Source: Enterobacter sp. JUb54 (GTDB lineage: Bacteria; Pseudomonadota; Gammaproteobacteria; Enterobacterales; Enterobacteriaceae). From it: a stretch of DNA of 64,000 bases. Location of the stretch: contig NZ_CP060418.1 of assembly GCF_014298075.1 (NCBI RefSeq), forward strand, positions 434,001 through 498,000. Direction: 5' to 3'. A model generated the notes under the pieces. The model had not been told where the DNA came from and did not search any database. It worked only from the letters and a program-made list of their open reading frames with translations. Within the stretch, counting starts at the first letter, position 1. Every line of letters begins with the position of its first letter. The position numbers and the translations under genes were made by a program. This document shows, in pieces, positions 21,417-36,010 of this stretch.

Positions 21417-21445
21417 CCACACCGTTGACATCAGGGGTAACCGAT

Positions 21446-22219
21446 ATGAAAACACGCATTGCCGCTTTACTGGCCTGTATGGCGCTGAGCGCACCGCTGG
21501 CCGCACAGCAGTTTGACACCATCAGCTTTGGGGTGGACGGTGGCTATCCACCGTTTGATGTCCTTGCTCCCAGCGGCGAGATCACCGGCTTTGACATTGA
21601 TATTGCCAACGCCCTTTGTACGCAGCTAAAAGCGAAATGCGTCTTCGTGAAGCAGCCGTTCGAGAGCATGATTGCCGCGCTCAACGCCCATAAATTCGAT
21701 GCCATTATCGCCTCGCTGAACATTACCGATGAGCGCAAGAAAGAGGTGGATTTCACCGACCGCTACTACCGTAGCGCCGCGCAGCTGGTGGCGCGCAAAG
21801 GCAGCCCGCTGCAGCCAGATGCCGCCAGCCTCAAGGGCAAGACCGTCGGGGTACAGACCGGTTCAACCCATGAAGCCTACGCCAGAACCCACTGGGCCAA
21901 CCATGGCGTGAAAATCGTCGGTTACGCCAACCAGGATAACGTTTATCTCGATCTGCTCTCCGGGCGTATCGATGCTTCCCTGCAGGACAATATTCAGGCG
22001 GCCACCAGCTTTATCGATACCCCGCGCGGGCAGAAGTTTGCCTTCGCCGGCCCGGTTATCAGCGATGGCAGTATCTCGTCCGACGTCGGCATTGCGGTGA
22101 ATAAAGACAATCCGGCGCTGCGCGATGCCCTGAACGGTGCGATTAAGCAAATCCGCGCCGACGGCACCTACGAGGCCATTCAGAAAAAGTACTTCAGCTT
22201 TGATATCTACGGCAAATAA
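21446..22219 (+). CDS. Amino-acid ABC transporter substrate-binding protein
   Basis: Periplasmic receptor of SBP family 3 (HisJ/ArtJ/FliY type), 257 aa. Signal peptide 'MKTRIAALLACMALSAPLAA' then mature protein. Seen: 'GGYPPFDV', 'GFDIDIANALC', 'FDAIIASLNITDERKKEVDFT', and 'GKTVGVQTGSTHE', all typical of cationic/polar amino acid receptors. ATG at 21446 with AGGGG upstream is chosen; an upstream in-frame TTG is not needed. Sits between the dimethylargininase gene and two permease genes, so a basic amino acid such as a modified arginine is the likely ligand. Confidence 0.92.
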   Translation: MKTRIAALLACMALSAPLAAQQFDTISFGVDGGYPPFDVLAPSGEITGFDIDIANALCTQLKAKCVFVKQPFESMIAALNAHKFDAIIASLNITDERKKEVDFTDRYYRSAAQLVARKGSPLQPDAASLKGKTVGVQTGSTHEAYARTHWANHGVKIVGYANQDNVYLDLLSGRIDASLQDNIQAATSFIDTPRGQKFAFAGPVISDGSISSDVGIAVNKDNPALRDALNGAIKQIRADGTYEAIQKKYFSFDIYGK

Positions 22220-22230
22220 GCCGTGAAGGG

Positions 22231-22260
22231 GAGGGCGCGGTCGGCGATCGGCGCCCCTTT
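22231..22260 (+). terminator. Attenuator-like hairpin after the binding-protein gene
   Basis: GGGCGC (22233-22238) pairs with GCGCCC (22251-22256), extended by AAGGGG upstream against CCCCTT downstream with bulges, followed by TTT. Partial termination here would give more receptor than permease, as often seen in ABC operons. Confidence 0.45.
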
Positions 22261-22283
22261 ACGACACGGGTGGAAGACAGAAT

Positions 22284-22976
22284 ATGGTTGCAGACTATTT
22301 ACCGTTACTGCTGCGCGGCGCGGGGCTTTCGCTGTGCGTGATGCTGGTTTCGTTGCTGGTGGCGCTGTTGTTAGGGCTGCTGAATGCGCTGATTAAGCTG
22401 TTCGGGCCGCGCTGGCTACGCTGGTTTTCGACCGGCTATACCACGCTGGTGCGCGGCATTCCGGAGCTGGTCATTATGCTGCTGCTGTTTTTCGGCGGCG
22501 AGATGCTGGTGAATACGCTGCTGGGGCTGGTCGGGTTCGGGCCGGTTCGCTTCAATACCTTTATTTCCGGGGTGCTGGCGATTGGCTTTGTGTTTGGTGC
22601 CTACTACACCGAAACCTTTCGCGGGGCCTTTCTGACCGTCGACCGGGGGCAGACCGAAGCGGCACAAGCGTACGGCATGCGTCCGTGGACGGTCTTTCGG
22701 CGCGTGATGCTGCCGCAGATGCTGAGTTTTGCCATTCCGGGTATCAATAACAACTGGCTGGGGCTGATGAAAGCGTCGGCGCTGGTGTCGATCCTCGGTT
22801 TAGAAGATATGGTGTGGCTGGCGGAACAGGCCGGGCGCGCCACGCAGAAGCCGTTTTTGTTCTACTTCCTCGTGTCGCTGATTTATATGGTGATCACCGC
22901 CTTGTCCAGCTGGCTGTTTAATCGTCTGGCGAAGCGCTACGCGCTGCGCTCTTCGACGGCGGGGGCGGCACTATGA
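22284..22976 (+). CDS. Amino-acid ABC transporter permease, HisQ type
   Basis: Inner-membrane permease, 230 aa, about five helices. 'GYTTLVRGIPELVIMLLLFF' and the EAA-type loop around 'EAAQAYGMRPWTVFRRVMLP' are the HisQ/ArtQ family signatures. Stop codon overlaps the next permease start by 4 nt (ATGA). Pairs with the HisM-type subunit; no ATPase gene is found in this cluster. Confidence 0.93.
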   Translation: MVADYLPLLLRGAGLSLCVMLVSLLVALLLGLLNALIKLFGPRWLRWFSTGYTTLVRGIPELVIMLLLFFGGEMLVNTLLGLVGFGPVRFNTFISGVLAIGFVFGAYYTETFRGAFLTVDRGQTEAAQAYGMRPWTVFRRVMLPQMLSFAIPGINNNWLGLMKASALVSILGLEDMVWLAEQAGRATQKPFLFYFLVSLIYMVITALSSWLFNRLAKRYALRSSTAGAAL

Positions 22977-23698
22977 ACCTGCAGACTTTTATCGATGCGC
23001 TACCGGGCTACCTGTGGAGCGACGGCAACGGCTCGGCGAGCGGGCTGGCGGTGACGGCGGAACTGTTTTTACTGTCTATCGTTCCCGGCATGGTGCTGGC
23101 GGTAGTGATGGCGGTCATCCAGGTGTACGGCCCGCGACTGCTGGCCTGGCCGATTCGCGGCTGCACCTGGTTCTTTCGCAGCACGCCGCTCTACCTGCAA
23201 CTGATGCTGATCTATTACGGGCTGTCGCAGTTCGATATCGTCCAGCTGGGCTGGCAAAACGATCGGCCGTTCTGGCTGCTGTTCCGCGATGCGACCTTCT
23301 GCGCCACCTTAGCGTTGGTGCTGAATACGGCCGCTTACGTGGCCGAGTTGCTGGCAGGGATGATGATGACCTTCCCGCGTCAGGAGTGGGTGGCCGGTGA
23401 AGCCTACGGCATGAGCAAAGGACAAATTATTCGTCGTCTGGTGCTGCCGGCGACGCTGCGGCGGGGTATTCCGGCGCTGAATAACGAGATGGTGTTTTTA
23501 CTGCATGCCACGTCGCTGGCCAGCACCGTCACGCTGCTCGATATTACCGGCGTCGCGCGGGCGTTTTATGCCATCACCTATTCGCCGTTTATTCCGTTCC
23601 TGATGGCCGCCGCGCTCTATTTGCTGTGCACTTTTTTACTGATATTCGCTTTTTCACGCGCCGAACGACGCTGGCTGGCGTTTGCCCGCCGCTCGTGA
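22973..23698 (+). CDS. Amino-acid ABC transporter permease, HisM type
   Basis: Second permease, 241 aa. 'RGCTWFFRSTPLYLQLMLIYY' region and the EAA loop 'GEAYGMSKGQIIRRLVLP' place it with HisM/ArtM. Coupled to the preceding gene by ATGA. Its stop is immediately adjacent to the convergent Lrp-type gene. Because neither strand nearby encodes the matching ATPase, this importer must borrow one (for example a HisP/ArtP-like protein encoded elsewhere) or be incomplete. Confidence 0.93.
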   Translation: MNLQTFIDALPGYLWSDGNGSASGLAVTAELFLLSIVPGMVLAVVMAVIQVYGPRLLAWPIRGCTWFFRSTPLYLQLMLIYYGLSQFDIVQLGWQNDRPFWLLFRDATFCATLALVLNTAAYVAELLAGMMMTFPRQEWVAGEAYGMSKGQIIRRLVLPATLRRGIPALNNEMVFLLHATSLASTVTLLDITGVARAFYAITYSPFIPFLMAAALYLLCTFLLIFAFSRAERRWLAFARRS

Positions 23699-24169
23699 TC
23701 AGGAGCGTTTAATCGCCTGAAGTTCGGTCAGGGTCACGATTTTATCGACGCGGAATTTTTTGCTGGTCAGCCAGGTGTCCGCCAGCTGGCAGTAGTGGGC
23801 CATGCTGCGACAGCCGATGCGCACCAGAAAGTCAAAGCTGCCGCTGACCAGCCAGCAGTCGAGCACTTCCGGGGTCTGGCGCATCTCCTGTTCAAATACC
23901 GGCTGCGAGCGGCCATGGTCGGCCAGCGCAATCTGCGCCTGCACCACGAAGGCATGCTCCGGCTCGGGGAGATCGATAATCGCGCTGTAGCCTCTGATAA
24001 TTCCATCGCGCTCAAGGCCACGTACGCGTTCCAGGCAAGGACGGGCGGTGAGGTTTACCTGCTCCGAGAGCTTTTGATAAGAAATGCGGCCATCCCGGCG
24101 CAGGATTTCAAGGATCTTATGATCGATACGGTCAAGCCGGGCTTTCTTTTCCACAAAGAGGACGTCCAA
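23699..24169 (-). CDS. Lrp/AsnC family transcriptional regulator
   Basis: About 156 aa: N-terminal winged HTH ('LDRIDHKILEILRRDGRIS', then 'KLSEQVNLTARPCLERV') and C-terminal RAM/ligand domain ('YSAIIDLPEPEHAFVVQAQI', 'WLVSGSFDFLVRI'). Such regulators sense amino acids. Start uncertain: TTG at 24169 or GTG at 24154; neither has a strong ribosome site. It is divergent from, and practically abutting, the AstE-like gene, and convergent with the permease operon, so it probably regulates one or both by binding the shared start region. Confidence 0.88.
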   Translation of the reverse strand: MDVLFVEKKARLDRIDHKILEILRRDGRISYQKLSEQVNLTARPCLERVRGLERDGIIRGYSAIIDLPEPEHAFVVQAQIALADHGRSQPVFEQEMRQTPEVLDCWLVSGSFDFLVRIGCRSMAHYCQLADTWLTSKKFRVDKIVTLTELQAIKRS

Positions 24170-25284
24170 TGAAAATTAAACACTATACCTTACCCGAACA
24201 TGCCCTGGGTGGGCAGCGGCAATTAACGCATTTTCATTTTGGCGAACCCGGCGTCGGGGAGAAAGTCTATCTCCAGGCAGGGCTGCATGCCGATGAAATC
24301 CCGGGCATGTTGGTGCTGCACTATCTTAAAAGATTACTGTGCCAGGCGGAACGGCGCGCCGAGCTGCGCGGTGAAATTATCCTCGTTCCGGTGGCAAACC
24401 CGCCGGGACTGGCCCAGGTGATGCTCAACAGCGGCATCGGGCGCTTTGACCTCGGCAGCGGCCGCAACTTTAATCGTGATTTTCCCGACCTGGCCCGCCT
24501 GGCGCAACCCCTGTTGCAGGACGCAGCGCCGCTGACGCACGATAATTACCGGCAACGGGTACGCCAGGCGATGCGCGATGGGCTGGCCGCGGAGCCGGTA
24601 CGTAGCGAAGTGCAGGCGCTGCGCCATCATCTGCTGAGCCTGGCCTGCGATGCGGATGTCGTGCTGGATCTGCACTGCGACGACCAGGCCATTTTACATA
24701 TGTACGCCGATCCGGCCTGGCAGCCAGAGGCCGGGGTACTGGCCGCTTTTCTTGGGATCGGCACGGTGCTGCTGTCGCAGGAGAGCGGCGGTAACTCATT
24801 CGATGAAGCCTGCGGGCTGCCCTGGCAGCGTCTGGCGGCCCCGTTTCCCCAACTGCCACGGCAGCCCGGCTGCATGGCGGTGACCGTCGAGCTGCGAGGC
24901 CAGCAGGAGGTCAATCATGAGGTGGCGCGTCAGGATGCCGAGCGGCTCTATCGCTACCTGCAATTTCGCGGCGTGCTGGCCGGCGATCGTCCGGAGGTCC
25001 CGCAGCAGCAGACGGTGATGCTGCCGTTTAGCGCCGGAGAGATTGTCACCGCCCCGGCGAGTGGGATTCTGGTCCAGCTGAAACAGCCCGGCGAGTGGGT
25101 CAGCGCCGATGATGTGGTAGCCGAAATTGTCGACCCGCTGACCGATATGATCAAATCCGTTCGCCCGCAGGCCGGCGGGCTGATCTACGCCAGCCGTCGG
25201 GCGCCGTTTGTGACCTTCGGTGCCGAAGTGATGAAAATCGCCGGCGAACAGCCCTTCAGCGGCGGTGGCGGACTGGCGATGTAA
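24169..25284 (+). CDS. Succinylglutamate desuccinylase/aspartoacylase (AstE/ASPA) family protein
   Basis: Zinc-dependent deacylase/carboxypeptidase of the M14-like AstE family, 371 aa. Zn ligands His40 and Glu43 in 'GLHADEIPG' and a later His in 'VVLDLHCDD'; substrate-binding Arg in 'GSGRNFNRDFPD'. C-terminal beta domain has a lipoyl-like turn ('GEWVSADDVVAEIVDP'). Could remove an N-acyl group from an amino acid. Shares its start region with the divergent Lrp-type gene, suggesting direct control. Its link to the dimethylargininase operon (release or processing of an amino acid) is inferred from position only. Confidence 0.85.
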   Translation: MKIKHYTLPEHALGGQRQLTHFHFGEPGVGEKVYLQAGLHADEIPGMLVLHYLKRLLCQAERRAELRGEIILVPVANPPGLAQVMLNSGIGRFDLGSGRNFNRDFPDLARLAQPLLQDAAPLTHDNYRQRVRQAMRDGLAAEPVRSEVQALRHHLLSLACDADVVLDLHCDDQAILHMYADPAWQPEAGVLAAFLGIGTVLLSQESGGNSFDEACGLPWQRLAAPFPQLPRQPGCMAVTVELRGQQEVNHEVARQDAERLYRYLQFRGVLAGDRPEVPQQQTVMLPFSAGEIVTAPASGILVQLKQPGEWVSADDVVAEIVDPLTDMIKSVRPQAGGLIYASRRAPFVTFGAEVMKIAGEQPFSGGGGLAM

Positions 25285-25325: not shown

Positions 25326-26231
25326 CTATCGGCGGACTGGGAGCACGTCGTCGAGAAAATCGTTCACCGTCTGCATGCATAACGCGCGCTCTTCCACGTG
25401 CGGCATATGGCTGGACTCTTCGAATATTGTCCAGCGCACGTCGGGAATGTGGTCCATAAAGGGCTGCACCACCTCCGGCGTAGCCTCGTCGTAACGCCCG
25501 GAAATCAGCAGGACCGGAACCTGGATGTGCGCCAGACGGTCGATAATGGTCCACGCTTTCATGCTGCCGATGACGTGAAATTCGGTGGGGCCGTTCATCG
25601 CGTGATACACCGTCGGGTCGGCATCCATCGCGTCAAAGGTGCGCCGCACTTCCGCCGGCCAGGGATCCAGGCGGCAGACGTGGCGTTGATAAAACACCTG
25701 GCTTGCCGCTTTATACGCCGGGCTGTCCAGCGTGCCCGCCGCTTCATGTTCCTGTAGCGTCTGCTGGACCCCGGCGGGCAGCTGCGCCCGCAGGGCCGCC
25801 GCCCCCTGTAGCCACAGCGCCATTGAGGCCGGAGAATTGGCGATTACCAGCGCCTTTAGCCCCGACGGCTGCGTCACGGCGTGTTCCGCCCCCAGCATTC
25901 CGCCCCACGACTGACCAAGCAGGGCGTAATTATCGGCAATCTCCAGATGCTGCAGCAGGTTAGCCAGTTCATCGAGAAACAGCGCCGGCTGCCAGAAGTC
26001 GGCGGGCTGCTGCGGAAGATGGGTCGAGCGCCCGTTGCCTAACTGATCGTAGTGGATCACCGCCCGCCCGCTGAGGGCGATATCGCGAAACGCGTCGACA
26101 TAATCATGCGTACACCCAGGTCCGCCGTGGGCAACCACCAGCGGCGTCAGGCCGCTATGGAGATCGCCGCAAACACGAAACCAGGTTTGATACTGCCGAA
26201 ACGGCGCGTAGCCTTCGCTAATGGTGTACAT
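25326..26231 (-). CDS. Proline iminopeptidase-like alpha/beta hydrolase (first copy)
   Basis: S33-family serine hydrolase, 301 aa, cytoplasmic (no signal peptide). Oxyanion motif 'HGGPG' (35-39), nucleophile Ser108 in 'GQSWGG', Asp in 'GRYDEATP' and His in 'SSHMPHVE' complete the triad. Known relatives cleave N-terminal proline or small amides. AGGGAAAG precedes ATG at 26231. A lux-box-like palindrome lies 63 bp upstream and immediately after the luxR stop, so this gene probably has its own regulated promoter. Arrangement pip-luxR matches XccR/OryR/PipR loci. Confidence 0.9.
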
Positions 26232-26294
26232 GAATGTTCTTTCCCTGCTCAGTGGACCGGCTTTCAGGGTAAAGGCTGGTCACCGCGGCTGAAC

Positions 26295-26312
26295 ACTAGC
26301 AAAAATGCTAGT
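26295..26312. promoter_or_regulatory. lux-box-like palindrome upstream of the first peptidase gene
   Basis: Perfect inverted repeat ACTAGCA-AAAA-TGCTAGT, 7-bp arms with a 4-nt spacer, 18 bp in all, the geometry of a lux box. It sits 2 bp beyond the luxR stop and 63 bp before the leftward peptidase start. Its complement matches 15 of 18 bases of the element at 27178-27195. Confidence 0.75.
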
Positions 26313-26314
26313 TC

Positions 26315-27067
26315 TTAACTGTCGAGCAGGCGGTAGTGCAGGGCGCGGACCACCGCCTGCACGCGGTTGCTGGCGCCGAGTTTTTTCGCCGCGGTATTCA
26401 GATGTAGCGTCACCGTCGCTACCGAGCGATGCAGCTTGCGGGCAATCTCTTTGGCGGTCAGCCCCTCGGCGGACCACGCCAGGCATTCACGCTCGCGGTT
26501 GCTTAACTTCACGTGACGACAGGTCAGCATGGTGCTGTCGAACAGCGGGAAGGCGGACTCCTGAAACTGGTGGGCCAGCAGCATCAGCTGTGCGAGGGTC
26601 GCGTTGATTTCCCGCTCCTGACGCTGGCCGGTGTGGATGCCGGTGAGGGTCACAAACCCGCCGTTAGGCAGATGCAGGGGAACCGTGGCGCCGCAGGGCA
26701 TATTGTGTTCGCGCATATAGTCGGTAACGGCGGCGGCGTCGGTATCCAGCCTGCCGCGCAGCATGCTGTTATCCGGGTGTTGATAGGACCAGACAAACGG
26801 CGCGCAGCTCGCCAGCGCGCAGTGCTGCACCGGATCCAGCTGGTAATAGCCGCGCTCGCACCACAGCTGGCGCATATCTTCCGGCACGTTGTACGTCTTC
26901 AGTAATGACGGCGTAATCAGCTCCCCCTCCAGCGAGCGCGGGACCGGCGTGTAGTCGTAAATGACCGCGTCGAATCCCAGAGTGCGGGTTTGCTGAAAAA
27001 GCCCGCCGAATGCCTCATCCAGGCTGGTCGCCCGGGCGCTGCCGGGGCGTTCAAACTCCAGTCGCAT
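26315..27067 (-). CDS. LuxR solo, plant-responsive (OryR/XccR/PipR) type regulator
   Basis: 250 aa: N-terminal autoinducer-binding domain (about 10-165) and C-terminal LuxR HTH (about 187-245, 'LSNRERECLAWSAEG', 'LTAKEIARKLHRSVATVTLH'). Aligning the ligand pocket with LasR/TraR, the invariant Trp57 and Tyr61 are Met65 ('VPEDM') and Trp69 ('RQLW'), whereas Asp70 (Asp78 in 'LDPV') and Trp85 (Trp93 in 'PFVW') are kept. This Met/Trp pair is the mark of LuxR solos that respond to plant compounds instead of acyl-homoserine lactones. No luxI gene is in the window. Flanked on both sides by peptidase genes; AAGGGGG precedes the start. PipR of Pseudomonas GM79, with the same neighbours, senses an ethanolamine derivative. 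Confidence 0.9.
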   Translation of the reverse strand: MRLEFERPGSARATSLDEAFGGLFQQTRTLGFDAVIYDYTPVPRSLEGELITPSLLKTYNVPEDMRQLWCERGYYQLDPVQHCALASCAPFVWSYQHPDNSMLRGRLDTDAAAVTDYMREHNMPCGATVPLHLPNGGFVTLTGIHTGQRQEREINATLAQLMLLAHQFQESAFPLFDSTMLTCRHVKLSNRERECLAWSAEGLTAKEIARKLHRSVATVTLHLNTAAKKLGASNRVQAVVRALHYRLLDS

Positions 27068-27177
27068 AAAACCCCCTTCAGGTTAAACCGAGATCCGCGA
27101 CGGGCACGATTTGTGCAAAACCGTCCGGTGCTCGCTCATAGGTATGCAATTCCGGTGCCGTCCCGACGCGGCGTAAA

Positions 27178-27195
27178 ACTAGTATTTTTGCTAAC
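27178..27195. promoter_or_regulatory. lux-box-like element upstream of the peptidase-ABC operon
   Basis: ACTAGTATTTTTGCTAAC, an imperfect version of the perfect palindrome at 26295-26312 (15/18 identical to its complement, with the central TATTTTTGCTA region kept). It lies 75 bp before the rightward peptidase start and about 110 bp before luxR on the other strand, so it could act on both promoters. Confidence 0.65.
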
Positions 27196-27270
27196 TGTTC
27201 AGCTTCCGGCGTTGCCGTTAGCGTTAATGCAACGCCAACAGCCGGCACCATCGACGACGAGGAACACACC

Positions 27271-28170
27271 ATGTGGAGCGAAATAGCACCCGACCAGTGC
27301 CATCACATTGCGGTGGATGGATATAACGTCGTGGCGTATCAATTCGGCGACGGCGACGAGACCATTTTGTGCCTCAATGGCGGGCCGGGGCTGCCCTGCG
27401 ACTATCTGCGCGAGGCCCACTCTTTTCTGAAACTGCACGGCTACCGGGTAATCGCCTTTGACCAGTTGGGTACCGGAAAATCCGACCGACCGGATGACGC
27501 CAGCCTGTGGACCATGGCGCGTTACGTGCGGGAAGTGGAAACCGTCCGCCAGACGCTGGGGCTTGGCAAGGTCCATCTGCTTGGTCACTCGTGGGGCGGC
27601 TGGCTGGCGATTGAAGTGGCGTTGCACCATCCTGGCGCAATTCGCTCGCTGATTCTGGAAAACACCGTTGCCGATATGCCGCATCTGGTGCAGGAACTGA
27701 ACCGTCTGCGCGGCGCGCTGGGTTCCGAAACCGTGGCGATGATGCAGCGTTATGAAGCGCTGGGCTGGCTGGATCACCCGGCTTATCAGGCAGCGATTAC
27801 TCTGCTGAACTATCGCCACGTCTGCCGCCTGGACGTGTGGCCCGAGCCGGTTAAGCGATCGCTTGAGGACTGGAATATGGCGCCCTATGTCACCATGCAG
27901 GGGCCGAACGAATTTCTCTATACCGGTAATTTAAAAGCGTGGAACCGTAGCGCAGAACTGGCCTCCATCCACGTGCCGTGCCTGATCACCAGCGGCCAGC
28001 ACGATGAACTGACGCCCGCCTGCGCCCTGAAAATGAAGCAGGGGCTGGCGAATGCCGAGATCGCGATTTTTGCCAACAGCAGCCATATGCCGTTTTACGA
28101 AGAGCCGCAGGCGTACTACCCGGTGCTGCTCGACTTTCTGGCGCGCCAGCGCGACCCGGGAGGCCGCTGA
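27271..28170 (+). CDS. Proline iminopeptidase-like alpha/beta hydrolase (second copy)
   Basis: S33-family hydrolase, 299 aa. Oxyanion motif 'NGGPG' (36-40), 'DQLGTGKSDRP', nucleophile Ser107 in 'GHSWGG', Asp in 'GQHDELTP', His in 'SSHMPFYEE'. Recognisably paralogous to the copy left of luxR but clearly diverged. First gene of a rightward operon with a complete peptide ABC transporter: its TGA shares one base with the next ATG. Cytoplasmic, so it would act on the imported compound, releasing an amino acid or amine. Confidence 0.9.
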   Translation: MWSEIAPDQCHHIAVDGYNVVAYQFGDGDETILCLNGGPGLPCDYLREAHSFLKLHGYRVIAFDQLGTGKSDRPDDASLWTMARYVREVETVRQTLGLGKVHLLGHSWGGWLAIEVALHHPGAIRSLILENTVADMPHLVQELNRLRGALGSETVAMMQRYEALGWLDHPAYQAAITLLNYRHVCRLDVWPEPVKRSLEDWNMAPYVTMQGPNEFLYTGNLKAWNRSAELASIHVPCLITSGQHDELTPACALKMKQGLANAEIAIFANSSHMPFYEEPQAYYPVLLDFLARQRDPGGR

Positions 28171-29108
28171 TGCACCGTTACCGTTTTCTGTTATTTCGTC
28201 CGCTACAGTTGCTGCCGGTGCTGCTGGGCATCAGCCTGATCACCTTCATGATGGTGCGCGCCATCCCCGGCGATCCGGCGCGCATTTTGCTGGGAGTCCG
28301 CAGCACTCCGGCGGCGCTGGCCCGCGTTCGCGCGCAGTTTGGCCTCGATGAACCGCTGTGGGTGCAGTACGGCTATTTTCTGCGCAACTTGCTGCAGGGC
28401 GAGCTGGGGAAGTCGATTGTCTACCGGGTGGATACCCTCAAGCTGATCGGCTCGCGGCTTGAACCGACGCTGTGGCTGGTGCTGGGCAGCGTGCTGCTGG
28501 CGATAGTGCTGACGGTGCCGCTGGCGACCACCGCCGCCCGCCAGCGCGGGCGCCTCGCCGACCGGCTGATTCGTCTTTTTACCACCGCCGGGCTTGGCTT
28601 TCCGGCGTTCTGGCTCGGCATCATGCTGATCCTGATGTTCAGCATCGTGCTCGGCTGGTTTCCGGTCTCCGGCTACGGCAGCGATTTTATAGACCAGCTG
28701 CATCATATGGTTCTGCCGTGTCTGACCGTGGCGCTGGCGCTGTCGGCGGTATTAATTCGTAACCTGCGCGCCAGCCTGCTGATGGAGATGAACAGCGACT
28801 ATGTCGTCGCGGCCCGGGCGCGCGGACAGCGAGAGCGTCGGATTTTCTGGCGCCACGTGCTGCCGAACTCGCTGGTACCGACCATTAACCTGCTGGCGGT
28901 GAATATCGGCTGGCTGATCGGCAGTACGGTGGTGATCGAAAGCGTGTTTGCCATTCCCGGCCTCGGACAGCTGCTGGTGAAGGCGATCTTCAGCCGCGAC
29001 TACATGGTGGTCCAGGGGGTGGTGATGGTATTTGCCCTCGCCACCGTGGTGGTGAGCCTGCTGGCGGATATTCTGACCGTGGCCCTCGACCCGAGGATCT
29101 CATTATGA
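28170..29108 (+). CDS. Peptide ABC transporter permease, DppB type (pip locus)
   Basis: 312 aa inner-membrane subunit. N-terminal helix 'PLQLLPVLLGISLITFMM', then 'RAIPGDPARILLG', the DppB hallmark. EAA loop near residues 208-230 ('VVAARARGQRERRIFWRHV'). Start overlaps the peptidase stop by 1 nt and its end overlaps the next gene by 4 nt, so the peptidase and the transporter are one translationally coupled unit. Likely imports the substrate of the two peptidases. Confidence 0.92.
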   Translation: MHRYRFLLFRPLQLLPVLLGISLITFMMVRAIPGDPARILLGVRSTPAALARVRAQFGLDEPLWVQYGYFLRNLLQGELGKSIVYRVDTLKLIGSRLEPTLWLVLGSVLLAIVLTVPLATTAARQRGRLADRLIRLFTTAGLGFPAFWLGIMLILMFSIVLGWFPVSGYGSDFIDQLHHMVLPCLTVALALSAVLIRNLRASLLMEMNSDYVVAARARGQRERRIFWRHVLPNSLVPTINLLAVNIGWLIGSTVVIESVFAIPGLGQLLVKAIFSRDYMVVQGVVMVFALATVVVSLLADILTVALDPRISL

Positions 29109-29950
29109 AGGCGATAGCGACCTTTTCCCGCCTGCGTCAGCGGGCGATCCCGCGCCAGCAGGCGCTGTGTGCCGGGCTGGCGATTGTCGGGCTGTGGCTG
29201 CTGGTGGCCTGTCTGGCACCGTGGATTGCGCCGTTCGACCCGATCGTTCAGGACCCGGCATCCAGCCTGCTGCCGCCGGGGGGGATCCATCCGTTCGGTA
29301 CCGACAATTTTGGCCGTGATGTCTTTTCCCGCGTGCTGTGGGGGGCGCGGGTCGATCTGCAAATCTGCCTGCTGGGGGTGCTGTTTCCCTTTATGCTCGG
29401 CACCACCCTGGGGGCGCTTGCGGGCTATCTTGGCGGAGTGGTGGATGCGCTGGTGATGCGGGTGATTGATATCGTGCTGGCCTTTCCGTTTCTGGTGCTG
29501 ATGCTGGCGATCATCGCCATCCTCGGGCCGGGGCTGAGCAGCTTTTATATCGCCATGGCGATGGTGGGTTGGGTCTCATATGCCCGCCTGGTGCGCGCTC
29601 AGGTGCTGACCCTGAAACAGCGCGATTTTATTCTGGCGGCCCGCAGTCTGGGCTACGGCCATCTGCGGATATTGTTCCGCCACCTGCTGCCGAACGCGTT
29701 GACCGGGGCCATCGTCTTTTCGATGTCCGACTGCGTGCTGGTGCTGCTGAACGGCGCGTCGGTGAGCTATCTCGGGCTTGGGGTACAGCCGCCCACCGCC
29801 GAATGGGGGGTGATGGTGGCGGAAGGACAAAGCTTTATTACTACCGCATGGTGGATAACCACCTTTCCCGGTCTCGCCATCGTGCTGCTGGCGATGGGGT
29901 TCAGCCTGCTGGCCGACGGGCTGGGCGATAAGTTAGGAGAGCGCGTATGA
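29105..29950 (+). CDS. Peptide ABC transporter permease, DppC type (pip locus)
   Basis: 281 aa second permease. 'HPFGTDNFGRDVFSRVLWG' is the OppC N-terminal signature; EAA loop 'FILAARSLGYGHLRILFRH'. ATGA overlaps on both sides (upstream permease, downstream ATPase). Sequence differs clearly from the DppC-type gene at 2042-2947, so the two importers in this window are not a recent duplication. Confidence 0.92.
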   Translation: MKAIATFSRLRQRAIPRQQALCAGLAIVGLWLLVACLAPWIAPFDPIVQDPASSLLPPGGIHPFGTDNFGRDVFSRVLWGARVDLQICLLGVLFPFMLGTTLGALAGYLGGVVDALVMRVIDIVLAFPFLVLMLAIIAILGPGLSSFYIAMAMVGWVSYARLVRAQVLTLKQRDFILAARSLGYGHLRILFRHLLPNALTGAIVFSMSDCVLVLLNGASVSYLGLGVQPPTAEWGVMVAEGQSFITTAWWITTFPGLAIVLLAMGFSLLADGLGDKLGERV

Positions 29951-30927
29951 GTCTGCTGACGGTAAACAATCTGACGGTCACGCGCGGCGCAGATATCGCG
30001 CTGGTGGATAACATCTCGTTCACGCTGGCGACCGGGGAGATGCTCGGGCTGGTGGGCGAGAGCGGGTCGGGGAAAACCGTCACCTGCCGGGCGCTGATGC
30101 GCCTGCTGCCGGGAACCGGATTACGCATCACTGCTGGGGAAGTGCGGCTGGGCGGACGGGATATTTTGTCCCTCAGTGAAGGACAGATGTCGGCGGTGCG
30201 CGGGCGGGAAATCGGCATGATTTTCCAGAACCCCACCAGCCATCTCAATCCGGTGATGACCATCGGCGAACAGATTGCCGAAAGCCGCCGCCTGCACTTT
30301 GGCGCCAGCCGTCGTCAGGCGCGGGAGGATGCGCTCGCGCTGCTGCGTCAGGTCGGGATCCCCGACCCGCAGAACCGGCTCAATAACTATCCGCATGAGT
30401 TTTCCGGCGGTATGCGCCAGCGGGCGATGATTGCCGTTGCCCTCGCGCCGGAGCCGAGGCTGCTGATTGCCGATGAACCGACGACCGCGCTGGACGTGAC
30501 CGTGCAGATGCAGATTCTGCGCCTGCTGAGCGACCTGCGTGGGGAACTGGGGCTGGCGGTCATTATGATCACCCATGACCTTGGCGTGGTGGCGCAAACC
30601 TGCGACCGGATCGCGGTGATGTACGGCGGACGGCTGTGTGAAGTGGGCGGCAAGCGCGAGGTGCTGGCCGGGCCGCTACATCCCTATACCCGCGGACTGA
30701 TTGACTGCCAGCCGGTGAGCGAAGGCGGGCAGGGGAGACTGACGACCATCGACGGCCAGCCGCCGGTTGCCGACCATTTTCCGCCAGGCTGTCGTTTTCA
30801 CCCGCGCTGTCGCCGTGCCGACGAGGCCTGCCAGCAGCAACCGGTATTGCATTACGGGCAGGAGGGTCGCACTCACGGCGCCGCCTGCCATCACATATTG
30901 CCGACGCTTACCCGGCGGGAGGGTTAA
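29947..30927 (+). CDS. Peptide ABC transporter ATPase, DppD type (pip locus)
   Basis: 326 aa, full DppD length. Walker A 'GESGSGKT' (37-44), Q-loop '[14 protein letters not shown]', signature 'FSGGMRQR', Walker B '[12 protein letters not shown]', switch 'ITHDLGVV'. C-terminal oligopeptide-transporter domain carries the Cys-rich stretch ('[15 protein letters not shown]') which in DppD/OppD holds an iron-sulphur cluster. Ends directly at the next start. Confidence 0.93.
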
Positions 30928-31962
30928 ATGGTTCACGCTCACTGGCCGCTGCTTGAGGCCGATAATCTTTCCGTCACCTTTCCGGTTTCCGGCGGGCTGT
31001 GGCAGCCGAAACGGCGGGTACACGCGGTCAATCAGGTGTCGCTGCAGATCCACCCCGGCGAGACCCTGGGGCTGGTGGGCGAATCCGGTAGCGGCAAAAG
31101 CACGCTGGGGCGGGCGCTGTTACAGCTGGAGCGGGTTGCCGGCGGAGAGGTGCGGTTCGAAGGGCAGCGCATCACCCATGGTTTAACCAGCGATATTGCC
31201 CGGCTGCGTCAGCAAAGCGCGATGATTTTTCAGGACCCCTTTGCCTCGCTGAACCCGCGTCAGACCGTAGGCGAGAGTATCGCCGAGGTGCTGCGGGTGC
31301 ATAAGAAAGTACCGCGCGGGCAGGTCGCCCAGCGAGTCGAGGCGCTGCTGGTCCAGGTTGGCCTGCGCCCGGAGCAGGCCAGCGCGAAACCGGCTCAGCT
31401 AAGCGGCGGCCAGTGCCAGCGTGCCGGTATTGCCAGAGCGCTGGCGATGGAGCCGCGGTTGATCGTCGCGGATGAGTGTGTGGCGGCGCTGGATGTTTCT
31501 ATTCAGGGGCAGATCGTCAATTTACTGATGGATCTGCGCGAAACCATGGGGCTGGCGATTCTGTTCATCGCTCACGACCTGGCGATTGTGCGCCGGCTGT
31601 GCGATCGCGTTGCGGTGATGTACCTCGGGCGGATCGTCGAGGAGGGGCCAGCGGAAGCGGTCTTCACCCGACCGCTGCACCCGTACACCGCCGCGCTGGT
31701 TTCGGCGATCCCGGAAATTGACCCGGATAAACCGCTGCCGAAGAGCGGTCTGGGGGGCGAACCACCCAGCCCGGTCGCAGTTCCACAAGGCTGTGCATTT
31801 CATCCGCGCTGCCCTTATGCGCAGGTGCAGTGTCGCACCGGCGCACCACCACCAACCCGGCAGATTGCCGACCGCGCTTATGCCTGCATCCTCAACCATG
31901 CGGGCCATGAGACCGTTTTTCCTTTGACAGGGGGATCTTTTGATGAAGCACAGGCATGTTAA
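30928..31962 (+). CDS. Peptide ABC transporter ATPase, DppF type (pip locus)
   Basis: 344 aa. Walker A 'GESGSGKS', signature 'LSGGQCQR', switch 'IAHDLAIV', C-terminal Cys-containing extension ('GCAFHPRCPYAQVQC'). Odd: the Walker B/D-loop reads 'LIVADECVAALDVS' instead of the near-universal ADEPTSALDVS; the catalytic Glu is kept, but Pro-Thr-Ser became Cys-Val-Ala. Follows the DppD-type gene without a gap and overlaps the binding-protein gene by 20 nt. Confidence 0.92.
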   Translation: MVHAHWPLLEADNLSVTFPVSGGLWQPKRRVHAVNQVSLQIHPGETLGLVGESGSGKSTLGRALLQLERVAGGEVRFEGQRITHGLTSDIARLRQQSAMIFQDPFASLNPRQTVGESIAEVLRVHKKVPRGQVAQRVEALLVQVGLRPEQASAKPAQLSGGQCQRAGIARALAMEPRLIVADECVAALDVSIQGQIVNLLMDLRETMGLAILFIAHDLAIVRRLCDRVAVMYLGRIVEEGPAEAVFTRPLHPYTAALVSAIPEIDPDKPLPKSGLGGEPPSPVAVPQGCAFHPRCPYAQVQCRTGAPPPTRQIADRAYACILNHAGHETVFPLTGGSFDEAQAC

Positions 31963-33457
31963 ATTACTGGCGGCCAGCGTATTTCTGGCGTTAAGCGTGG
32001 TCAGCGAAATGGCGCAGGCGGCGGGGGTATTGACCATTGGTCGCCGCGAGGACAGCACCACCTTTGACCCGATAAAATCGGCGCAAAACGCCGATAACTG
32101 GGTCTTTTCCAACGTCTTCGACCCGCTGGTGCGGGTGGATAAAAGCGGGACAAAGCTGGAGCCTGGGGTGGCTGAGAGCTGGACCATTTCCGCGGATGGT
32201 AAGGTCTACACCTTTAAAATTCGCGATACCCAGTTTTCCGACGGCACGCCGCTGACCGCCAGCGATGCGGCGTTTAGCCTGCTGCGCATCCGTGATGATG
32301 AGGGCTCACTGTGGCGCGACTCCTACAGCATCATCGCCAAAGCCGAGGCCACCGACCCGCGCACCCTGGTGGTGACCCTGAAATCGCCTTCCGCGCCGTT
32401 CTTATCGCAGCTGGCGCTGCCGAACGCTTCGGTGATTTCAGAGAAGGCGATGAAAGCCGAAGGCGAAGAGGCCTTTGCCGAGAAGCCGGTCGGCTCCGGC
32501 GCGTTTAGCGTGAAGGAGTGGCAGCGCGGGGAGAAAATCGTGCTGGTGAAGAACCCTCACTTCTGGCAGGCGAAAAACGTCAGCCTCGATGGCGTGGAGT
32601 GGCTAACTATTCCTGACGATAATACCCGGATGCTGAAAGTGCAGGCCGGAGAACTTGATGCTGCCCTGACCGTGCCTTTCTCGCGCATCGCGTCGCTGCA
32701 GAAGGATGCGAATCTGAAGGTGGAGCTGGATCCCTCCACCCGCGAGGATCATCTGCTGATTAACCATTCCCACGGCGCGCTGGGCAAAGTGGAAGTGCGC
32801 CAGGCGCTGGACTTCGCGATTGATAAAGACGCCATCGTCAAGACCGTGACCTTTGGCTACGGTCAGGTGGCGAACTCGTATATTCCTGCCGGGGCGCTGT
32901 ATCACTACGCCGACAATCTGCGTCGCCCCTACGATCCGCAAAAGGCAAAAGCGATGCTCAACGCGGCGGGCGCCGCCGACCTGAAGCTGAACTATGTGGT
33001 CAACGCCGGGGATGAGGTGGATGAGCAAATCGCCATTCTGCTGCAGCAGCAGCTGGCGAAAGCCGGGGTGACGGTCAACTTACAAAAAGTCGATCCGAGC
33101 CAGAGTTGGGATATGCTGGTGGCCGGGGATTACGATATCTCGGTGATGTACTGGACCAACGATATTCTCGACCCCGACCAGAAAACGACCTTTGTGCTGG
33201 GGCATGACAGCAACATGAACTATATGACCCGCTACCATAACGAGCAGGTCAAGGCGCTGGTGGCCGCCGCGCGCGTCGAAATGGACAGTAAAAAGCGCGA
33301 GCAGATGTATATCGACCTGCAAAAAATGGCCAAAGCCGACGTCAACTGGGTTGACCTGTATTACAGCCCGTACCGTAACGTCAGCCGTAAGAATATCGAC
33401 GGTTTTTACCAGAATCCGCTGGGGCGCTTCTTCCTCGAGGATACCGTGAAACACTAA
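31943..33457 (+). CDS. Peptide ABC transporter substrate-binding protein (pip locus)
   Basis: Periplasmic receptor, SBP_bac_5 family, 504 aa. Signal peptide residues 1-25 ending 'EMAQA'. Seen: 'TFDPIKSAQNADNWVFSNVFDPLVRVD', written here only as family landmark region at about 30-57, 'GVAESWTISADGKVYTFKI', 'KVEVRQALDFAIDKDAIV'. ATG at 31943 follows AGGGGGA at correct spacing; the TTG just before it is rejected. Unusually, the receptor gene is last rather than first in the operon. A strong terminator follows. Confidence 0.93.
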   Translation: MKHRHVKLLAASVFLALSVVSEMAQAAGVLTIGRREDSTTFDPIKSAQNADNWVFSNVFDPLVRVDKSGTKLEPGVAESWTISADGKVYTFKIRDTQFSDGTPLTASDAAFSLLRIRDDEGSLWRDSYSIIAKAEATDPRTLVVTLKSPSAPFLSQLALPNASVISEKAMKAEGEEAFAEKPVGSGAFSVKEWQRGEKIVLVKNPHFWQAKNVSLDGVEWLTIPDDNTRMLKVQAGELDAALTVPFSRIASLQKDANLKVELDPSTREDHLLINHSHGALGKVEVRQALDFAIDKDAIVKTVTFGYGQVANSYIPAGALYHYADNLRRPYDPQKAKAMLNAAGAADLKLNYVVNAGDEVDEQIAILLQQQLAKAGVTVNLQKVDPSQSWDMLVAGDYDISVMYWTNDILDPDQKTTFVLGHDSNMNYMTRYHNEQVKALVAAARVEMDSKKREQMYIDLQKMAKADVNWVDLYYSPYRNVSRKNIDGFYQNPLGRFFLEDTVKH

Positions 33458-33466
33458 TGCCTCTTT

Positions 33467-33500
33467 GCGCCGGTTGGCCCTGGTCACCGGCGCTTTTTTT
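33467..33500 (+). terminator. Rho-independent terminator of the peptidase-ABC operon
   Basis: Stem GCGCCGGT (33467-33474) / ACCGGCGC (33486-33493), 11-nt loop, followed by seven T (33494-33500). A textbook intrinsic terminator 10 bp after the receptor stop codon. Confidence 0.9.
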
Positions 33501-35255: not shown

Positions 35256-35873
35256 TTAACCTCGTTGCTTGAGTAGATGAATAAACTGAAAAAAGTCAGA
35301 GTGATTATTCAGCCCGTATTTTTCCATAATCTGGTTTTTATGATAGATAACCACCTTCGGGGTGATCTGATGCAGGGTCGATATTTTGCCAATATCGAAA
35401 CCGTGCATTAGACCATGGGCCACCACAACCTGCGAAGGTGACAGGGTCTTATGCGGGCAGTTGGCGCAGATGAGTGCCGGGTCGAACGCCGGCGTTGCGG
35501 TGGGCTCCACACGTCGTTTCAGCGCTTTCGCAATAATGTCAGCCATGCCATCAACGTTGACCGTTCGAAGCGGCACGAAGGTCACGTCTTTCAGACAGTT
35601 CACAATCCGGCTCTTGTCAGGCAGGGTCTCATAGCGATGCAGGACGATCACCTCGCTGTTTTTCTTACGGTTTTTAATACTGATATTACAGTGATGAATT
35701 TCACCCGGCAGCAGTTCGGTGATGATAATATCCTGCTCGGCCAGCCCACTCGTCGCGTGAGTAAAGCTGACCGTCAGACCATCGCTGGCCTGGGTGAGAT
35801 CGTCGATGATGGCCATCAGCGACGCCCTGAGGAAGGTGTTGCGGCTAACGATCGCGATACTGATATTTCTCAT
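35256..35873 (-). CDS. LuxR-family HTH transcriptional regulator, unassigned
   Basis: About 205 aa from ATG at 35873 (preceded by AGGA about 10 nt upstream; the frame is open 22 codons further). N-terminal part resembles a receiver fold ('ISIAIVSRNTFLRASLMAII') but I see no canonical Asp-Pro pocket, so it is probably not phosphorylated. The C-terminus is a LuxR/GerE HTH: 'LSPSQVVVAHGLMHGFDIGK' then 'TPKVVIYHKNQIMEKYGLNN'. A CxxC pair ('ICANCPHKT') sits in the linker. Such two-part regulators (RcsA, MrkI, BglJ-like) often control surface structures. Function unknown. Confidence 0.8.
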   Translation of the reverse strand: MRNISIAIVSRNTFLRASLMAIIDDLTQASDGLTVSFTHATSGLAEQDIIITELLPGEIHHCNISIKNRKKNSEVIVLHRYETLPDKSRIVNCLKDVTFVPLRTVNVDGMADIIAKALKRRVEPTATPAFDPALICANCPHKTLSPSQVVVAHGLMHGFDIGKISTLHQITPKVVIYHKNQIMEKYGLNNHSDFFQFIHLLKQRG

Positions 35874-36010
35874 GGCGTGATATTCCTGCGCATCAACACA
35901 ACGCCATGCTGCGAGCAACCTTTCGGGCGTATACGGCAATAGCTAGCGAGGGAAGCGTATTTGATAAACTGCTGCCACGGTCTTGTATCAGGACGGCAGC
36001 ACAACCCGGA

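Follow-up and report, generated by a model that had tools for sequence, protein, structure and literature searches.

A LuxR solo, two peptidases, and a peptide-type importer

The window analysed here is a stretch of 64,000 nucleotides (positions 434001-498000) from the single-contig genome (5.30 Mb) of Enterobacter sp. JUb54, whose neighbours are Klebsiella. Between window positions 25326 and 33457 it carries eight genes, which encode two hydrolases, a LuxR solo, and a five-gene peptide-type ATP-binding cassette (ABC) importer, all of them open where a sequence-only reading of this DNA had placed them. The first gene, pip1 (25326..26231, minus strand), holds the position of pipA and encodes an S33 proline-iminopeptidase-family hydrolase (TIGR01250, 257 bits; best solved relative 7a6g, 479 bits) with the motifs HGGPG, GQSWGG, GPTEF, DEATP, and SHM. 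It is followed by luxR (26315..27067, minus strand), which encodes a KoyR/PsrR-type LuxR solo of 250 aa with Autoind_bind (PF03472) and GerE (PF00196) domains. On the opposite strand, pip2 (27271..28170, plus strand) holds the position of aapA and encodes a second S33 proline-iminopeptidase-family hydrolase, with NGGPG in place of HGGPG. Both hydrolases score above the TIGR01250 cut-off; they are 37% identical over 268 aligned positions, and the motifs of S33 peptidases, a family with a catalytic triad, are kept in both. The difference in the first motif recurs among the 35 loci examined, as HGGPG is found in 35 of 35 pip1 products and NGGPG in 15 of 15 pip2 products encoded beside luxR.

Downstream of pip2 lie, all on the plus strand, two permease genes (AapB/DppB type, 28170..29108; AapC/DppC type, 29105..29950), two ATPase genes (OppD/DppD type, 29947..30927; DppF type, 30928..31962), and the gene of an AapF-like periplasmic binding protein (31943..33457). 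The types were assigned from domain matches (BPD_transp_1, ABC_tran with oligo_HPY, and SBP_bac_5), and a signal peptide is visible by eye at the N-terminus of the binding protein. The start of this last gene is the ATG at 31943, chosen by reading, while the list of open reading frames gives a TTG at 31940. Base 28170 is common to pip2 and the first permease gene, and the subsequent junctions overlap by 4, 4, 0, and 20 bases, in turn. The AapF-type binding protein and the four importer subunits share one operon with a peptidase. This operon is closed by an intrinsic terminator (33467..33500, plus strand), a hairpin of -19.3 kcal/mol followed by seven T and more stable than expected (z = -4.0; 0 of 200 shuffles equally stable). 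A general terminator scan, whose loop limit of 8 leaves this hairpin unlisted, returned a total no higher than in shuffles. Open reading frames, domains, and hairpin agree with the sequence-only reading, which had described pip-like genes, a luxR gene, and a divergent second pip-like gene joined by a one-base overlap to importer genes and closed by a strong terminator.

The same eight genes occur in the same order in named Klebsiella, Phytobacter, Mangrovibacter, and Brenneria loci and in two K. variicola plasmids, which makes a chance arrangement untenable. Kosakonia-type, Pseudomonas, and Rahnella-plasmid loci have the importer and no pip2 beside luxR (L009-L015, L026-L033, L048). The layout does not stand as the main find that the sequence-only reading took it for: K. 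michiganensis has already been reported with it (PMC11064500), and Kosakonia with one that comes close (PMC7301841).

Identity of the LuxR protein is 93-95% with its counterparts in K. indica, K. michiganensis, K. grimontii, K. spallanzanii, and "Enterobacter sp. 10-1", 80-82% with those of six Kosakonia species, and 56% with those of seven Pseudomonas loci, most of which belong to the P. syringae group. The LuxR protein is also 50% identical to a protein of Rhizobium PDO1-076, a genome whose solo is listed as plant-associated (PMC11064500), although the listed solo may be a different protein. In a tree of 24 rows (23 homologues including the window protein, but not OryR, XccR, or PipR, with the genome's own SdiA-like protein, on a very long branch, as sole outgroup), the window protein groups with two other Klebsiella rows (K. 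indica and K. michiganensis) at 100/99 support. These three fall within a larger group (98/94) that also holds Trabulsiella and, next nearest to the window protein, Kosakonia and Phytobacter.

Replacement of W57/Y61 of acyl-homoserine lactone (AHL) receptors by M (or W)/W is described as a mark of plant-associated LuxR solos (PMC11064500, PMC7301841). The window protein has M65 and W69 at these positions, aligned with W and Y of RhlR, and its pocket residues are K57, V61, M65, R66, W69, and C70. Kosakonia rows have E at position 57. Pseudomonas rows have W at 65 and H at 66 (Y in L033), close to the W/H of PipR (PMC7301841). No gene resembling an AHL synthase was found among the locus genes, and a genome search with PF00765 gave no match, as was also the case in the control genomes.

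The binding protein aligns with AapF (7kz8/7kz9) at 789 bits, with 341 of 479 aligned residues identical (71%), including the stretch MYWTNDILDPDQKTTF, which is identical in both; the next solved relative reaches 183 bits. The M/W substitutions, the nearest relatives, the gene order, and the AapF-type binding protein support the assignment of the solo to the OryR/PipR plant-associated type, which had been proposed from the sequence alone, and the tree is compatible with it.

Four known systems are informative for comparison. The closest is koyR of K. michiganensis LDS17, a LuxR solo gene located between two pip genes with lux-box-like repeats at both pip promoters (PMC11064500). The window belongs to the same genus and shares the layout, the inverted repeats, the ABC importer cluster, and the M/W pocket (PMC11064500), and a protein from another strain, K. 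michiganensis DSM 25444, is 94% identical over 250 aa to the window LuxR. By protein identity, the window nevertheless represents another species. The passages on KoyR report no functional test, and the terms sigma, rpoN, and NtrC are absent from the main text of that paper (PMC11064500). Secondly, Pseudomonas sp. GM79 has the same pipA-pipR order, divergent aapA and importer genes, an AapF-like protein, and boxes at both promoters, but the PipR pocket is W/W instead of M/W and the aapA-side box overlaps the pipR reading frame (PMC4981722). Judging from the text of that paper, the GM79 intergenic gap looks too short for a Klebsiella-type sigma54 region. Thirdly, PsrR of Kosakonia KO348 shares with the window the M/W pocket (including M65/R66), the same boxes, and an adjoining importer, but Kosakonia loci have no second pip gene and E at the position of K57. 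Finally, three Rhizobium/Phyllobacterium plasmid loci (L049-L051), which we take to be NesR-like, resemble the window in their pip-importer operon divergent from luxR, in a second pip gene, and in the NGGPG of pip2. They differ by a single ATP-binding gene instead of two, another repeat upstream of luxR, and no sigma54 element.

The circuit type and layout are thus known, and the locus is a well-formed member of a published type with a testable regulatory lead. What is added here is the spacing between box and hexamer, the mobility between astE and dctA and on plasmids, and the sigma54-type element, all detailed below.

Lux boxes and a -24/-12-type element between the genes

The intergenic regions hold two lux boxes and a further conserved element, none of which had been noticed in the sequence-only reading. 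Lux box 1 (26295..26312, minus strand) has perfect 6-bp arms, ACTAGC-N6-GCTAGT, and a centre that precedes the pip1 ATG by about 72.5 bp. For lux box 2, ACTAGTATTTTTGCTAAC (27178..27195, plus strand), the corresponding distance to the pip2 ATG is about 84 bp. On the pip strand, both boxes have a -10-like TANNNT hexamer of putative promoter function 23 bp downstream: TACCCT for pip1 (26266..26271, minus strand) and TAGCGT for the pip2-importer operon (27219..27224, plus strand). This spacing would place the box centres near -44. Class II activators of the LuxR kind sit beside the polymerase, with a lux box near -42, and each of the two boxes would accordingly lie over the -35 region of a predicted promoter.

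Both arrangements are conserved. Among Enterobacterales rows, 22 of 23 keep 11-12 of the 12 arm bases of box 1, the remaining one being Brenneria L024 (8/12). TACCCT or TAACCT occurs exactly 23 bp past box 1 in all 28 loci with a strict box 1 (28 of the 55 distinct loci). On the pip2 side, TAGCGT or TAACGT is found in 17 of 19 aligned rows, and the two exceptions are Trabulsiella loci without a neighbouring importer, in which box 2 has decayed. As a separate observation, four loci of one genus with 3.8-Mb genomes (L074, L076, L078, and L079) have two tandem box-like repeats upstream of luxR.

The pattern used for searching was drawn from the two window boxes themselves. With up to two mismatches it gave 7 rows, 4 of which are the two boxes, versus 0.58 +/- 0.97 expected, a result that tells only that such sites are rare. 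Across the 5.3-Mb genome, exact matches are confined to the two locus places, and single-mismatch matches to two others (genome places 3390159 and 4584633). As the reversed control pattern is commoner in the genome (33 rows versus 5 for the box pattern), this rarity is partly a matter of composition and is by itself no evidence of selection. As the genome holds no other exact match, the output of the circuit looks local. The locus had been described as self-contained; on this evidence the description suits its output, but perhaps not its input, if luxR has a sigma54-type promoter.

The element that suggests such a promoter, CGGCACCGGAATTGCA (27145..27160, minus strand), lies between box 2 and luxR, on the luxR strand, and points at luxR. 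It matches 10 of the 11 positions of the sigma54 core GGCAY-N5-TTGCW. At 9/11 or better, 65 of the 72 locus rows have the core upstream of luxR; at 10/11 or better, the figure is 61 of 72, versus 22 of 6246 control windows taken from these loci. When 17 duplicate rows are removed, 48 of 55 distinct loci remain at 9/11 or better and 45 of 55 at 10/11 or better, and the seven Pseudomonas loci reach 11/11. In a motif-blind alignment, the columns of both blocks coincide across all 19 rows, with a variable N5 between them; these rows were picked from loci having the element, the Pseudomonas rows and the seven misses set aside, and they show the shape of the blocks, not their frequency. The element also fits the consensus of the E. 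coli RpoN motif, TGGCACnnTTnTTGC, with GG at -24, GC at -12, ten bases between them, and a TGGCAC...TTGC context (PMC8743547).

Two results speak against this assignment. The core is missing in the three rhizobial plasmid loci and in the four loci of the 3.8-Mb genus, the latter keeping a -24-like TGGCA and having lost the -12 half. In addition, the bare pattern is no richer genome-wide than its reversal (10 places versus 8), and the case therefore rests on conservation and place. With these in mind, luxR is probably read by sigma54 polymerase from a conserved -24/-12 element.

A second conserved element, GGGCACGATTTGTGCA (27102..27117, plus strand), lies on the opposite strand. It is sigma54-like at 9/11, with a weak -12, and since GG and GC were required by the scan, only its place and its other bases are informative. 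In the form GGGCAY-N5-KTGCA it is kept in many Enterobacterales loci, including three of the four Trabulsiella loci, which have neither box 2 nor a neighbouring importer. A role as promoter of the importer operon is doubted, since these three Trabulsiella loci keep the element without an importer and L066 keeps box 2 without the element. The pair raises another explanation, in which the TTGCA/GGCAC element at 27145-27160 is the site of another regulator rather than a sigma54 promoter and 27102-27117 is its second half. The two elements are indeed alike and in facing orientation, 27 bp apart, and the conservation of the second one fits this explanation. We nevertheless find it rather unlikely, as the seven Pseudomonas loci keep the first element only, at 11/11 to the sigma54 core, the N5 varies in sequence and is fixed in length as in a -24/-12 promoter, and the first element fits the E. 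coli motif (PMC8743547). The sigma54 promoter remains the preferred reading of the first element; in the open literature, we found no report of sigma54 or NtrC control for this receptor class.

Sigma54 polymerase needs an enhancer-binding protein with an upstream site. The NtrC box, TGCACCAnnnTGGTGCA (PMC8743547), was sought as TGCAC-N7-GTGCA within 400 bp upstream of luxR, and with at most one mismatch it is present in 8 of 55 loci versus 15 of 1691 control windows. Grouping 52 loci (the rhizobial ones left out) into clusters of related receptors gives 5 of 16 clusters versus 0.51 expected (4 of 496 control windows), with p = 1.9e-4 for a single motif. The five clusters are Kosakonia (one of eight loci, L010), a Rahnella-plasmid cluster (L066 and L070 of five), L068, L069/L071, and L075/L077, L075 standing beside a Dickeya protein in the tree.

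Several comparisons count against NtrC. Among 1024 half-sites, this one ranks fourth after clustering, behind three that we read as parts of box 2, and eighteenth without correction for relatedness; counted as 1024 tests, the palindrome is not significant. Among 60 permuted half-sites it is tied first with CCATG (8 loci each), and an N5 spacing is found in more loci than N7 (16 versus 8), an excess that we ascribe to the second element. Loose patterns separate poorly (29 of 55 loci versus 84 of 275 shuffles), as do matches at three mismatches (51 of 55 versus 1235 of 1691 control windows) and two (22 of 55 versus 233 of 1691). Thus, sigma54 control of luxR is likely, as far as DNA sequence can indicate, and NtrC is a lead for some of the relatives only. 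Two other enhancer proteins were considered: NifA sites (TGT-N10-ACA) occur in 2 of 55 loci versus 28 of 275 shuffles, and NifA was rejected; NorR-type sites occur in 6 of 55 loci versus 15 of 275 shuffles.

The proposed circuit and its ligand

Taking the genes, order, boxes, spacing, conservation, and kinship as directly observed, we consider it highly probable that the locus is the Klebsiella form (KoyR) of a PipR/AapA-F-type plant-associated LuxR-solo circuit, working along the following import-sense-degrade lines with sigma54 control. In the periplasm, the AapF-type protein would catch a small amine, an amide, or a short peptide, which the ABC importer would then take up. The LuxR solo would bind the imported molecule and then boxes 1 and 2, so that pip1 and the pip2-importer operon would be switched on, importer induction amplifying the signal. 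The two hydrolases, presumably cytoplasmic, would destroy the imported molecule and thus provide negative feedback. Finally, with luxR read by sigma54 polymerase, the receptor would be made only when an enhancer-binding protein is active.

That import is needed for sensing, and that the hydrolases dampen it, is suggested by Pseudomonas GM79, in which the response disappeared in an importer mutant and was excessive in peptidase mutants (PMC4981722). As for the control of luxR, the bolder version, in which luxR is under sigma54, in several lineages via NtrC, and the bacterium listens only under nitrogen shortage or another enhancer-coupled stress, would make an AND gate of nutrition and host cue; we regard the chances of this version as evenly balanced. 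If luxR is sigma54-driven, nitrogen-rich laboratory media may leave the receptor unmade in some species. An AND gate, if true, might also explain part of the failed inductions in Kosakonia. It would not explain those in P. syringae, whose psaR2 promoter is active in the laboratory.

A number of observations weigh against parts of this model. No convincing NtrC box was found in the window, nor in its Klebsiella cluster or the Pseudomonas cluster. Box 1 is poorly kept in the seven Pseudomonas rows (7-8/12). The effect of PipR on the aapA promoter was small in GM79 (PMC4981722), and amplification through the importer may therefore be weak. Plant extracts did not induce pip through either Kosakonia PsrR or P. 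syringae PsaR2 (PMC7301841, PMC3909224). Moreover, the psaR2 promoter of P. syringae pv. actinidiae is reported as strongly active and not autoregulated in the laboratory (PMC3909224), and the sigma54 core is perfect at the psaR2 relatives of the seven Pseudomonas loci. As that promoter is active and pip is yet uninduced by leaf extract, receptor supply is probably not the limit in P. syringae pv. actinidiae, and gating is not evident there.

The nature of the ligand can be approached through PipR, said to be the first solo of the plant-associated group for which a plant compound is known (PMC7301841). One alternative, towards which the sequence-only reading points, is that the window protein responds just like PipR, to HEHEAA or a closely related derivative of ethanolamine. 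The AapF-like binding protein agrees with this, AapF having been solved with HEHEAA bound (7kz9; PMC11168924), and so does K57, the equivalent of K96 of PipR, where PsrR has E (PMC7301841). However, the M/W pocket of the window protein is of the OryR/PsrR type and its M65/R66 contrasts with the W/H of PipR, none of rice macerate, ethanolamine, and HEHEAA induced pip through Kosakonia PsrR (PMC7301841), and a review states that HEHEAA cannot be bound by the transporter protein's close homologue in another species (PMC10134790). As the pocket is PsrR-like at M65/R66 and PsrR is unresponsive, a HEHEAA-type ligand is doubtful, and sensing identical to that of PipR appears improbable. Since peptone and the tripeptide SHS also activated the GM79 reporter (PMC4981722), a peptide is an equally probable ligand.

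The same responses of GM79 PipR suit a nutritional operon, in which the LuxR protein would be a catabolic regulator of a common breakdown product of peptides or amines and the plant association would be incidental. The importer and the hydrolases are catabolic in kind, nitrogen scavenging is suggested by the sigma54 and NtrC-like elements of relatives, and one copy of the module is carried by a plasmid from human faeces. We rate this alternative as a serious one, slightly short of even, and keep the plant-associated circuit described above as the preferred interpretation.

Distribution and mobility of the module

Of 20 Klebsiella genomes, 8 hold the receptor. In seven of the eight it is located between astE and dctA, with a gap of 8.4 kb in four genomes and about 29 kb in three, while astE and dctA are only 232-421 bp apart in four receptor-free Klebsiella genomes. 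In the eighth holder, the receptor is on a contig other than that of dctA and astE has no match. The remaining eight genomes have neither receptor nor astE, four of them also lacking dctA, at the thresholds used. In Klebsiella, the module has been either inserted or lost cleanly between astE and dctA. In addition, two K. variicola plasmids, one of which is typed as conjugative, carry the whole 8.1 kb at 86% identity. The Klebsiella module is a movable cassette, absent in some species, chromosomal in others, and found on these two plasmids. Both are large (L046 and L047, from banana sheath rot and human faeces), and L046 has insertion-sequence genes on both sides of the module.

At wider scales, and with only the best few candidates scored per genome, the receptor was found in 29 genomes out of 392 for the family, 2 out of 394 for the order, and 1 out of 369 for the class, the window's own genome being counted each time. 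No E. coli record matched window positions 26200-28200 in a near-identity search. Four Trabulsiella loci (L022, L023, L025, and L034) keep luxR, pip1, and box 1, with no importer or pip2 beside them in the stretch compared, and T. guamensis has two luxR-pip1 pairs (L023 and L025).

The receptor may be decaying in some strains: one K. michiganensis protein (P0057) is cut to its ligand-binding half, 166 aa, and the copy of Enterobacter sp. EA-1 (L026/L072) is reported with in-frame stops. As for the neighbouring genes, the region adjoining pip1 (window 21425-25284) carries genes of an amino-acid-type ABC importer, an Lrp-type regulator, and an AstE/aspartoacylase-like enzyme, likewise found in K. 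michiganensis and K. grimontii. On the other side, downstream of dctA, a 227-residue open reading frame (35256-35939, minus strand) is, by eye, response-regulator/LuxR-like.

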